A stretch of 64,000 bases of DNA from Crossiella sp. SN42 (GTDB lineage Bacteria; Actinomycetota; Actinomycetes; Mycobacteriales; Pseudonocardiaceae): the NCBI RefSeq assembly GCF_023897065.1, contig NZ_JAMHIV010000026.1, positions 62,001-126,000 on the forward strand, in the 5' to 3' direction. The notes under the pieces were generated by a model, which was not told where the DNA came from, ran no database searches, and saw only the letters and a program-made list of their open reading frames with translations. This document shows positions 28,891-54,999 of this stretch, piece after piece (position 1 is the first letter of the stretch; every line of letters begins with the position of its first letter). A program made the position numbers and the translations under genes.

Positions 28891-29292
28891 ATGGGACTGT
28901 TCACCGTGGCCGAGGCCCGGGCCGAGCTGGCCGCGCTGCTGCCGGTGCTGACCGAGGTCGTCGCGCTGCGCGCCGATGCCGCCGAGCTGGCCGTGGCGGT
29001 GGCGCCGGGTGGCGAGCCGAGTCCGCTGGGCGGGTTGCCGGAGTTCAAGGCGGCGCAGGCGCGGCTGGACGAGCTGATGACCCAGATCCAGCAGACCGGG
29101 GCGGAGCTGAAGGGGTTCGCGCCGCTGCTGGTGGACTTCCCGGCCGAGCTGGACGAGGTGCCAGTGCTGCTGTGCTGGCTGGAGGGCGACACCGAGCTGC
29201 TCTGGTACCACCGGCGGGACCTGGGGTTCGCCGGGCGCCGGCGGCCGAACCGGCGCGGCTATCGCGGGCGGGACTTTGCGGACACGCCCTAG
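28891..29292 (+). CDS. DUF2203 family protein
   Basis: 133 residues. DUF2203 signature: FTVAEARAELAALLPVL at the start, a coiled middle (QARLDELMTQIQQTGAELKGFAPLLVDFPAEL) and LLCWLEGDTELLWYHRRDLGFAGRR at the end. Function is unknown; the family is small, soluble and widespread. Here the protein carries an extra Arg-rich tail (RRRPNRRGYRGRDFADTP). Its stop overlaps the stop of the convergent HTH gene by 4 nt. Confidence 0.88.
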   Translation: MGLFTVAEARAELAALLPVLTEVVALRADAAELAVAVAPGGEPSPLGGLPEFKAAQARLDELMTQIQQTGAELKGFAPLLVDFPAELDEVPVLLCWLEGDTELLWYHRRDLGFAGRRRPNRRGYRGRDFADTP

Positions 29293-29528
29293 TCGGCGCG
29301 GCGGCCGAACAGCGCGGTGCGGCCGTGCTTCTTGTGCACCGCCTGCTTGCTGACGCCCAGCGCCGCCGCCACCTCGGTCCAGGTCCGGCCCGCGACCCTG
29401 GCCCGGCGGACCAGCACAGCCTCCAGACGTTCGAGTTCGCGGCGTAGTTCCGCGGCGGCGGCAAGTCCCTCGATCGGGTCGTCCACGCCGGTCGCCCTGG
29501 TCAGCGTCATCAACCGGTCCATCTCCAC
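29289..29528 (-). CDS. Small helix-turn-helix protein
   Basis: 79 residues. The C-terminal half is a sigma-region-4-like or Mor-type HTH: ARVAGRTWTEVAAALGVSKQAVHKKHG. The N-terminal half is a helix rich in Arg/Glu (LRRELERLEAVLVRRARVA), probably a dimerisation or linker helix. Such short proteins are common orphans in actinomycetes. GTG at 29528 is used; ATG at 29522 is as plausible. It is divergent from the HATPase-like gene at 29654. Confidence 0.75.
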   Translation of the reverse strand: MEMDRLMTLTRATGVDDPIEGLAAAAELRRELERLEAVLVRRARVAGRTWTEVAAALGVSKQAVHKKHGRTALFGRRAD

Positions 29529-52714: not shown

Positions 52715-53893
52715 ATGAAAGCTGTGACCTGGCACGGAAAGCGCGACATCCGCGTGGACACCGTGGCCGACCCGGCGCTCACCGAGCCCGACGACGTGAT
52801 CGTGCGGATCACCTCATCCGGGATCTGCGGCTCGGACCTGCACCTGTACGAGGTGATGGGCCCGTTCCTGGACCCCGGTGACGTGCTCGGACACGAGCCG
52901 ATGGGCGTCGTGCAGGAGGTCGGCCCGCAGGTGACCGCGGTCCAGCCCGGTGACCGGGTGGTGGTGCCGTTCAACGTCTCCTGCGGCACCTGCTTCATGT
53001 GCGGGCAGGGCCTGCACTCCCAGTGCGAGACCACCCAGGTCCGCGAGCAGGGCTCGGGCGCGGCGCTGTTCGGCTACACCAAGCTCTACGGCCAGGTGCC
53101 CGGCGGCCAGGCGGAGTACCTGCGGGTGCCCTTCGGCAACCAGCTGCCGATCAAGGTGCCGCAGGGCCCGTCGGACGACCGGTTCGTCTACCTCTCCGAC
53201 GTGCTGCCCACCGCGTGGCAGGCGGTGGAGTACGCGGCGATCCCGCCGGGCGGCAGCGTCGCGGTGCTCGGGCTCGGGCCGATCGGCGACATGGCCACCC
53301 GGATCGCCAAACACCGTGGAGCGGAAAAGGTCTTCGGCCTGGACCTGGTGCCGGAACGGCTGGAACGGGCCAGCCGCAACGGGATCGAGGCCATCGACGT
53401 GCGCTCGGCCGACCTGCTGGAGCAGATCCGCGACCGCACCGACGGCCGCGGCCCGGACGCGGTGATCGACGCGGTCGGCATGGAGGCGCACGGTTCCCCG
53501 GTCGGCAAGGTCGCCCAGCAGCTCACCGGTCTGCTGCCGGACGCGCTGGCCGCCAAGCTGATGCGCACCGCGGGCGTGGACCGGTTGCACGCGCTGCACC
53601 TGGCCATCGAGCTGGTGCGGCGCGGCGGCACCATCTCGGTCTCCGGCGTCTACGGCGGCATGGCCGACCCGCTGCCGATGCTCACCCTGTTCGACAAGCA
53701 GATCCAGCTGCGCATGGGCCAGGCCAACGTGCACCGCTGGGTCAAGGACATCCTGCCGCTGCTGGGCGACGACGATCCGCTGGGCACCGAGTCCTTCGCC
53801 ACCCACCGCGTCCCGCTGGCCGACGCGCCGCGCGCGTACGAGATGTTCCAGAAGAAGCAGGACGGCGCGATCAAGATCCTGCTGACGCCTTAG
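52715..53893 (+). CDS. Zinc-dependent alcohol dehydrogenase, formaldehyde-dehydrogenase-like
   Basis: 392 residues, medium-chain dehydrogenase/reductase. Catalytic zinc ligands: CGSDLHLYE and GHEPMGVV; structural zinc loop VSCGTCFMCGQGLHSQC is present though with an altered spacing. The NAD site is VAVLGLGPIGDMATRIAKHRGAEKVFGLD. The insertion after SPVGKVAQQLTGLL and length match glutathione-independent formaldehyde dehydrogenase-type enzymes. GGAGGCG precedes the ATG. The stop TAG is formed by the junction with the 160-bp palindromic element; without it the codon would be TAA. Confidence 0.9.
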   Translation: MKAVTWHGKRDIRVDTVADPALTEPDDVIVRITSSGICGSDLHLYEVMGPFLDPGDVLGHEPMGVVQEVGPQVTAVQPGDRVVVPFNVSCGTCFMCGQGLHSQCETTQVREQGSGAALFGYTKLYGQVPGGQAEYLRVPFGNQLPIKVPQGPSDDRFVYLSDVLPTAWQAVEYAAIPPGGSVAVLGLGPIGDMATRIAKHRGAEKVFGLDLVPERLERASRNGIEAIDVRSADLLEQIRDRTDGRGPDAVIDAVGMEAHGSPVGKVAQQLTGLLPDALAAKLMRTAGVDRLHALHLAIELVRRGGTISVSGVYGGMADPLPMLTLFDKQIQLRMGQANVHRWVKDILPLLGDDDPLGTESFATHRVPLADAPRAYEMFQKKQDGAIKILLTP

Positions 53894-54052
53894 GCCGTGT
53901 CGCCAGAGCCCCGTCTGCGGGAGTCGTGATCGGCTTGGCCGCTGGCGGTGCGGCCGGGACGCCCTCATACCGGACGTATTCGGGCGTTCCGGCCGTGCCG
54001 CCAGCGGCCAAACCGGCGCGGCTACCGCGGGCGGGGCTCTGGCGACACGGCC
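53893..54052. mobile_element. MITE-like 160-bp palindrome with 21-bp terminal inverted repeats
   Basis: The ends GGCCGTGTCGCCAGAGCCCC(G) at 53893-53913 and 54032-54052 are perfect complements. Inner arms also match (TTGGCCGCTGGCGG 53935-53948 with CCGCCAGCGGCCAA 53998-54011; CGGCCGGGACGCCC with GGGCGTTCCGGCCG), so nearly the whole element folds on itself around 53972. It is flanked by TA on both sides (53891-53892 and 54053-54054). It encodes nothing. The GGCCGTGTC end resembles tips of IS5-group elements of actinomycetes, so it is probably mobilised in trans. The insertion converts the shared TTAA of two convergent genes into two TAG stops. Confidence 0.8.
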
Positions 54053-54999
54053 TAACCCCAGCCCAGTCTGCCGCGCAGCCACTCGACGGCTGTGACGCCC
54101 TGCGCGCCTTGAAACGCGCGCAGGGTCGGCAGACCCGGCGGGTCCGGTTGCAGCGCACCGCGGACGAAGTACCCGGCGAGCCCGGCCAGCACCGCGTTCA
54201 CCGCGTCCGGATCCGCCGTCGCCGCAACGGGATGAGCCAGGAACACCGGGTCCAGCTCCGGACCACCCTGCATGCGCACGCTGGGCAACAGCGCGAGCAG
54301 GTCGATCCAGGCCGCGCCCCGGCAGGCGTGCGGCCAGTCGACCACCACCACCCGGTCCTCGGTCAGCAGCAGGTTGTCCGCGCGCAGGTCCCCGTGCAGC
54401 AACGTGTTCCCGGCCGCCGCCCCGGGCCAGCGCGACTCCAGCTCGGCCAGCCGGTCCAGGTTCCGCCGCGACCACGGGTCCAGGCGGTCGTCGGGTTCGG
54501 CGGCCAGCCTGCGCCAGCCGGTGAAGTTGCGCGCGAACTTCTCCTGCGCGGTCGGCACTTCCAGCGGGCAGGGGGTGAGCGCGTCGGCCAACTCGGCCAC
54601 CGCGGCCAGCACCCGGTCCAGCTCCCCGGCCAGCCAGGGCACCGAGGGCTGTCTGCCGTCGACGTCGGCGAACAGCAGCAGGGTCCAGCCGTCCTGGTCG
54701 AAACTGGCCAGCAGCTCCGGCACCGGGGCCACTGTGGACAGTCCACTGGAGACGATCGCCTCGGCCCGGTGCATCGGCGCGGCGAGTTTGTTGGTGTGCC
54801 AGTCCACTGCCTTCACGAACACCCGCCGCCCGTCGGCCAGCCGCAGCCGCGCCGCCACTCCAGGGGAGAACCCGCCGGTCTGGCTGGCCGCCTCGGCCAC
54901 CGGCGCGCCGAGGAACTGCTCGACCGCGGCCCGCAGCGGGGCGGCCACCTCGGACCAGGCTCGGCGGCGACCGGTGGCGGCGGGGGCTGGCTGGCTCAT
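54052..54999 (-). CDS. APH-family phosphotransferase (aminoglycoside-kinase-like fold)
   Basis: 315 residues. Kinase-like motifs are GGFSPGVAARLRLADGRRVFVKAVDW (nucleotide loop and Lys), NTLLHGDLRADNLLL (Brenner motif HGDxxxxN with catalytic Asp) and VVVVDWPHA (metal Asp). Actinomycete genomes hold many such kinases acting on small molecules; resistance to aminoglycosides cannot be inferred. ATG at 54999. The stop codon TAG is made by the edge of the MITE-like element. Divergent from the giant TPR gene with an 83-bp gap. Confidence 0.88.
   Translation of the reverse strand: MSQPAPAATGRRRAWSEVAAPLRAAVEQFLGAPVAEAASQTGGFSPGVAARLRLADGRRVFVKAVDWHTNKLAAPMHRAEAIVSSGLSTVAPVPELLASFDQDGWTLLLFADVDGRQPSVPWLAGELDRVLAAVAELADALTPCPLEVPTAQEKFARNFTGWRRLAAEPDDRLDPWSRRNLDRLAELESRWPGAAAGNTLLHGDLRADNLLLTEDRVVVVDWPHACRGAAWIDLLALLPSVRMQGGPELDPVFLAHPVAATADPDAVNAVLAGLAGYFVRGALQPDPPGLPTLRAFQGAQGVTAVEWLRGRLGWG

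Follow-up and report, generated by a model that had tools for sequence, protein, structure and literature searches.

We found that a 160-bp palindrome situated between two convergent genes of Crossiella sp. SN42 is very probably a non-autonomous MITE that is moved in trans by an IS427-like IS5 transposase, inserts into CTAG with duplication of the TA, rebuilds stop codons at its junctions and is constrained to fold back on one strand. The analysis started from a 64,000-nucleotide stretch of the genome (the window), to which all positions refer unless a locus or contig is named. As far as we found, the family to which the element belongs was previously unnamed and is spread through many soil actinobacteria; no description of it was found in the open-access literature.

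The element occupies positions 53893 to 54052 and is placed on the plus strand, the orientation with the best-folding RNA, on the basis of RNA minimum free energy (MFE), genome copies and empty sites. A preliminary description of this DNA had recognised an almost fully self-complementary stretch of 160 bp bounded by perfect 21-bp terminal repeats and flanking TA, and these coordinates confirm it: the terminal inverted repeats (GGCCGTGTCGCCAGAGCCCCG) lie at 53893-53913 (plus strand) and 54032-54052 (minus strand), and the palindrome reaches 24 bp if the flanking TTA/TAA is counted, i.e. over 53890-54055. The left and right copies of the duplicated target dinucleotide TA (53891-53892 and 54053-54054, neither assigned a strand) were delimited by the empty sites of two congeneric genomes, G004 and G001, and by the family pattern. 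A left subterminal arm (53902-53918), hypervariable among copies with an information content of about 0.7 bit per column, is complementary to and covaries with a right subterminal arm (54034-54047). The core (53921-54032), which the family-wide search and the alignment show to be conserved across the genera of the family, includes a hairpin tip that hardly varies, GCCCTCATACCGGACGTATTCGGGCG (53961-53986), whose internal loop is UC/UC and which is also present in Streptomyces elements; arms, core and tip are all given for the plus strand.

RNA from the plus strand folds into a single hairpin of -169 kcal/mol, compared with a mean of -94 for shuffled sequences (z = -16; 0 of 200 shuffles), and for 53890-54055 the MFE is -164.7 on the plus strand versus -143.7 on the minus strand. 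No U-tract follows the window hairpin on either strand. Open frames cross the element, which at 160 bp is too short for any transposase, and in the alignment of copies conservation tracks base pairing. Both flanking genes are genuine. The zinc-dependent dehydrogenase gene (52715-53893, plus strand; Pfam ADH_N and ADH_zinc_N) ends in a TAG stop at 53891-53893 that consists of the target TA and the first G of the element, and the gene for an APH-family phosphotransferase (kinase; 54052-54999, minus strand; Pfam APH) ends in a TAG stop at 54054-54052 that consists of the target TA and the last base of the element. The insertion point thus coincides with the stop that the two convergent genes share, and the lengths of both proteins are unchanged, as had been proposed. 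That such landings recur, that the core is conserved and strand-asymmetric and that the family extends over several genera are additions to the preliminary description.

Because the element is palindromic, the 61 matches obtained in a DNA search of its own genome (G000) collapse to about 40 distinct places that hold full or partial copies of at most 96% identity. Copies occur in each of the five genomes of the genus, G000 among them, and are fewest in G003, so that the further copies of the ends anticipated in the preliminary description do exist in this genome and in its relatives. The window locus is empty in a genome of the same species (G004), which reads CCCTAGCTCC / CTGACGCCCTAGCTCCAGCC, and in one of the same genus (G001), which reads CCCTAGGCCC / CTAACGCCCTAGGCCCAGCC. 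When the flanks of 14 other full copies were joined and compared with G004, the sites of eight (L002, L008, L009, L010, L011, L012, L013 and L014) were empty there, with exact empty junctions at L009, L013 and L014, the last at 100% over 161 bp. Short end-like remnants were present in G004 at L016 (CTAGGTCGTGTCCGACCT) and L017 (CTAGGGGCTGTCCGC). One copy (L006/L034) is common to G000 and G004, and between orthologous copies that have stayed in place about 17 of 480 sites differ, which is roughly the rate of their flanks. These comparisons indicate that the window element is mobile and not an ordinary terminator. A length of 160 bp, terminal inverted repeats, dispersed copies, empty orthologous sites and a TA target-site duplication are the features of a MITE, and the ends are shared with an autonomous element of the same genome (L198, described below), albeit with no exact match to the inner arm of the window copy. 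By these features the palindrome is assigned to an IS5-type MITE family, and the earlier suggestion of a MITE-like insertion is upheld by the roughly 40 places, the empty sites of relatives and the IS with matching ends.

Loss of the element seems to proceed via internal deletion, which leaves small palindromes or half elements (the L016 site in G004, L213 and window positions 29236-29293). Remnant palindromes that retain the element tips only were observed at L213 1357-1386, at about 1577-1600 of L310 and at about 1533-1600 of L167, which fits deletion of the hairpin interior, and one tips-only remnant occupies a site where G000 keeps a full element (L016). The DNA search of the genome also located a second, partial copy in the window, which comprises the right half of the element plus CTAG (29236-29293, plus strand). 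It supplies the last approximately 19 codons (..RRRPNRRGYRGRDFADTP*) and the TAG stop of a 134-aa ORF (28891-29293), and here the element has become coding sequence. Single CTAGGNCGTGTC ends that lack both the core and the opposite end were noted at L210, L211, L214, L220, L222 and L223; they exceed a reversed-pattern control in G000 and G002 and are possibly relics at gene ends. In the draft assembly of G000, 11 contig ends (C2, C4, C10, C22, C23, C27, C29, C45, C55, C60 and C67) lie inside copies, and the palindrome probably breaks the assembly.

Most copies are flanked in the form C-TA|GG...CC|TA-G, and the preferred target of the family, as read from these junctions, is CTAG with the TA duplicated. 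Because the empty site of L009 reads CTAA and its filled site CTA|G...C|TAA, TA is the duplicated unit, and a 4-bp duplication of CTAG or an insertion 3' of CTAG is ruled out. The junctions of the window copy read T-TA...TA-A, whereas its relatives have CTAG. Removing the element from the sequence with one TA yields CCTTAACCC, as predicted in the preliminary description, which also called for a search for empty sites; these were present in G004 and G001, but they read CTAG and not the expected TTAA, and on this ground a TTAA target was rejected. The outer T and A of the window copy are probably later C-to-T changes on the respective strands, a type of change that also separates L006 from its G004 orthologue L034; an ancestral TTAA is less likely. 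Because both the family target and the empty site of the relatives are CTAG, the simpler history is that TAG was probably the stop of both genes before as well as after the insertion, and the proposal that the insertion turned two TAA stops into TAG finds no support.

We classified the junctions of the 24 full-length copies of the genus, with gene calls made from open frames and third-position GC and not from annotation. The junction TAG was the stop of a coding-like frame on both sides in 10 copies and on a single side in another 10; 4 copies had no such stop. At least one junction TAG was a gene stop in 20 of 24 copies versus 15 of 42 background CTAGs (Fisher p = 0.0003), and a convergent pair sharing CTAG as both stops was found at 10 of 24 copies versus 3 of 42 background CTAGs (Fisher p = 0.0012); a less clean background that includes empty-site loci gave 16 of 124 for both stops and 43 of 124 for at least one. 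As judged from these copies, members of the family habitually land in a CTAG that convergent genes share, which may come from rarity of the target, loss of harmful insertions or a real preference. In the 64-kb window CTAG occurs 22 times versus 165 expected from base composition, an about sevenfold depletion.

In the mechanism that we propose, an IS5-type transposase would bind the ends of the element and then cut or copy it, and insertion would occur at the TA inside CTAG with duplication of the TA. The element starts with G and ends with C, so that insertion into CTAG would rebuild TAG on both strands; because of this, a CTAG that is shared as stop by convergent genes would be a harmless landing site. 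Insertions in shared CTAG stops would survive, being tolerated at one stop and best at two, and the rarity of CTAG in high-GC genomes together with its frequent location at stops would channel the element there. Once inserted, it would leave each of the two genes followed by a highly stable hairpin, and this plausibly ends convergent transcription or insulates the genes from it. The hairpin has no U-tract, and terminators lacking one are known from actinobacteria.

A candidate partner is present in the same genome. L198 (G000:C45:107589-108541) is an IS of about 950 bp in CTAG with the ends CTAGGGCGTGTCCTCAAAG / CTAGGGCCTGTCCTCAAAG, also read as GGGCGTGTCCTCAAAG and GGGCCTGTCCTCAAAG. Its transposase is split over two frames, with PF13340 and PF01609, and the joined frames match NCBIfam NF033580 (transpos_IS5_3) with an E-value of 4e-87; the two-frame DDE transposase and the TA/CTAG target are those of the IS5 family, within which we take its transposase group to be the IS427-like group. 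Copies L009 and L013 begin GGGCGTGTCCTCACAG and share CTAGGGCGTGTCCTCA.AG with L198, and L248, from another genus, begins TAGGGCCTGTCCTCAAAG / GGGCCTGTCCTCAAAG, identical to the L198 end. Among eight IS5-type elements of Streptomyces plasmids, six had TA or CTAG at both ends, with the ends GGGTCCGTCTTCAAA or GGACCTGTCTGACAAA, the latter type resembling copies L231/L229; the other two had no ends resolved. Mobilisation in trans by an IS of the L198 type would be in line with these shared ends and targets. In G001, the ends of a 180-bp element (L176) are IS-like, and it looks like an internal deletion derivative of an IS of this kind. Because the core of the MITE has no counterpart in L198, the MITE itself is not a simple internal deletion of that IS.

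The search for a full-length IS with the same ends, which the preliminary description had advised, thus succeeded for the outer ends with L198, but no IS was found whose inner end matches the window arm GCCAGAGCCCCG. G205 was searched for an IS carrying the CCGTGTTCCGGGTGTGG arm type, but nothing apart from the elements themselves rose above chance matches, and no Streptomyces IS with AAGGGCTGTCCCGTAA ends was recognised at the three unpaired ends examined. A second PF13340 IS (L205 1162-2277, G000:C12) lies in CTAG with the different ends CTAGGAGCTGTTTGGGGTTCGGAT, so that a second IS type in the genome uses the same target. At the other PF13340 loci, L206-L209, no ends of the element type were found.

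In a family-wide search, 95 of 297 genomes, from 20 of 46 genera, had matches; most of these were to the core, and some of the weakest may be chance. The search was seeded with the window copy, and the conservation of the core is therefore partly ascertainment; the variable arms between conserved ends are not. As many as 13 matches per genome were counted in ten genomes from seven other genera. In an alignment of 71 copies the outer ends (TAGG.C.TGTC) are conserved, the segment that follows is hypervariable but complementary, and the core is again conserved and bears the near-invariant tip. Changes on both sides were found in 52 of 69 predicted pairs; columns 25-170, for example, were AU in 19 copies, GC in 18, CG in 17, GU in 7, UA in 5 and UG in 4. 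In genus g71, elements of 164-179 bp share the tip but differ in their arms and have ends of the CTAG or CTAA type; we infer that this genus is Streptomyces because L322 matches 70 plasmid records, all of them from Streptomyces. Streptomyces genomes and linear plasmids (L320-L326, L354-L356) hold abundant relatives of 164-179 bp with AAGGGCTGTCCCGTAA or GGGCCTGTTGCGAAAG ends, one type of which was seen in 70 plasmid records at 155 places. The core motif was absent from the viral contigs, phage records gave no match and plasmid records gave none for the window element. The best Rfam match scored 28 bits versus a gathering cut-off of 69 bits, and the only matches, to microRNAs below threshold, were taken as chance.

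The deviations from Watson-Crick pairing in the arms are asymmetric between the strands. Using an alignment that favours neither type, we counted 638 G.T versus 35 A.C positions, with a G.T excess in 70 of 71 copies; the copies are related, and the counts are therefore of non-independent events. Counted by column and type, variants present in at least three copies comprised 30 G.T versus 3 A.C, and single-copy variants 23 versus 14 (not significant). In the arms only, variants shared by at least two copies were 12 G.T versus 0 A.C, and single ones 7 versus 8. Three Streptomyces elements with unrelated arms gave 25 G.T versus 3 A.C. Relative to a single flanking gene, 5 copies were in sense and 5 in antisense orientation, i.e. 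without preference, with small numbers for these single-sided copies as for the orthologues. The G.T/A.C asymmetry means that foldback of one strand matters and suggests that, during propagation, a strand-specific foldback of RNA (or ssDNA) is under selection, RNA being the simplest form. Because shared and private variants differ, resident copies drift at the rate of their flanks and no orientation is preferred, the constraint would seem to act on propagation and not on a host role at each site: a lineage that jumps would have to fold back as a one-strand hairpin, most simply RNA with G.U allowed, and copies at rest would drift like their flanks. We doubt, while considering it worth stating, a stronger version in which a strand-specific transcript of 160-180 nt with the conserved tip is needed for propagation, e.g. 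by binding the IS5 transposase or another factor, so that the element would ride on DDE insertion sequences with the help of its RNA and exchange its end sequences to follow different transposases.

Several other explanations were weighed against these data. A very stable hairpin exactly between convergent genes is what an ordinary bidirectional terminator belonging to this gene pair would look like. The preliminary description had named a single copy and a structure conserved at the locus as the signs of such a terminator; the roughly 40 places genome-wide, the empty locus in G004 and G001 and the lack of a U-tract on either strand make it extremely improbable, and the empty sites together with the dispersed copies refute this reading. 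Movement as ssDNA by an HUH (tyrosine) transposase, in the manner of REP/REPIN or IS200/IS605 elements, would explain a strand-specific foldback and a conserved tip with internal mismatches. We consider it very unlikely, since the L009 junctions fit a duplicated TA with G..C ends and not an insertion 3' of an intact tetranucleotide, and the termini and target match those of a DDE IS5 element.

The remaining alternatives concern the arms and the core. A regulatory RNA or terminator that has been domesticated and is kept for host benefit at each site would be in keeping with the conserved core, the RNA-like covariation and the placement behind genes, but it is quite unlikely given that resident orthologous copies diverge at about the flank rate, that orientation relative to a single flanking gene is evenly divided, that most sites are empty in the same-species genome and that the G.T bias of singleton mismatches (23 versus 14) is weak and non-significant. 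Self-correction is an established property of quasi-palindromes, and template switching or arm-to-arm conversion of the DNA palindrome, with no selection on folding, could by itself make the arms change together. This explanation of arm complementarity cannot account for the one-strand excess of G.T over A.C, and orthologous resident copies, with only about 17 differences to compare, showed no change on both sides of a pair; we regard it as unlikely.

The nearest known kinds of element, by our comparison, are the Correia (CREE) and ERIC elements. The Correia repeats of Neisseria (CREE/NEMIS) are 100-160 bp long, and RNase III binds or cleaves their hairpin RNA (PMC2649163). They resemble the present family in size, inverted repeats, a conserved core, a usual TA target and the apparent absence of a protein (PMC2649163), whereas the present family resides in high-GC actinobacteria, sits in CTAG at shared stops, has IS5-type ends with a candidate partner IS and is hypervariable in its arms and not in its core. 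ERIC, too, is a small mobile palindrome that is dispersed through genomes and whose insertions differ between strains, with 3' ends of genes among its sites, but it is unrelated in sequence and hosts, and no target that rebuilds stop codons is described in the ERIC source cited here (PMC10969869). The CTAG target and the G-first ends of L198 and the Streptomyces IS5-type elements match the IS427-like group, which includes IS870; IS870 is reported to need CTAG as its target and to gain its own stop codon from it (Fournier et al. 1993, J Bacteriol 175:3151, reference 93 of PMC6471742), whereas here the stops of two host genes are rebuilt, by an element without a transposase. REP/REPIN elements with their RAYTs are also palindromic, form imperfect hairpins and often lie between convergent genes (PMC3733652), but they consist of 20-40-bp units with GTAG/CGTC tags, unlike the present 160-bp element with TAGG..CCTA ends, a TA duplication and DDE-type ends.

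Since its target already serves as two stop codons and its ends restore both, the element would be nearly invisible to its host, and its recurrent separation of overlapping convergent genes by a hairpin means that it may be a mobile insulator. The usual MITE pattern is inverted in this family, in that the core is conserved and the arms change yet stay complementary, with a G.U bias on one strand; this opens to testing the long-standing question of whether selection acts on short bacterial repeats as RNA, and whether for the host or for the element. Breaks in assemblies and recurring hairpins in the genomes of high-GC actinobacteria, those of Streptomyces included, may also be due to this family.
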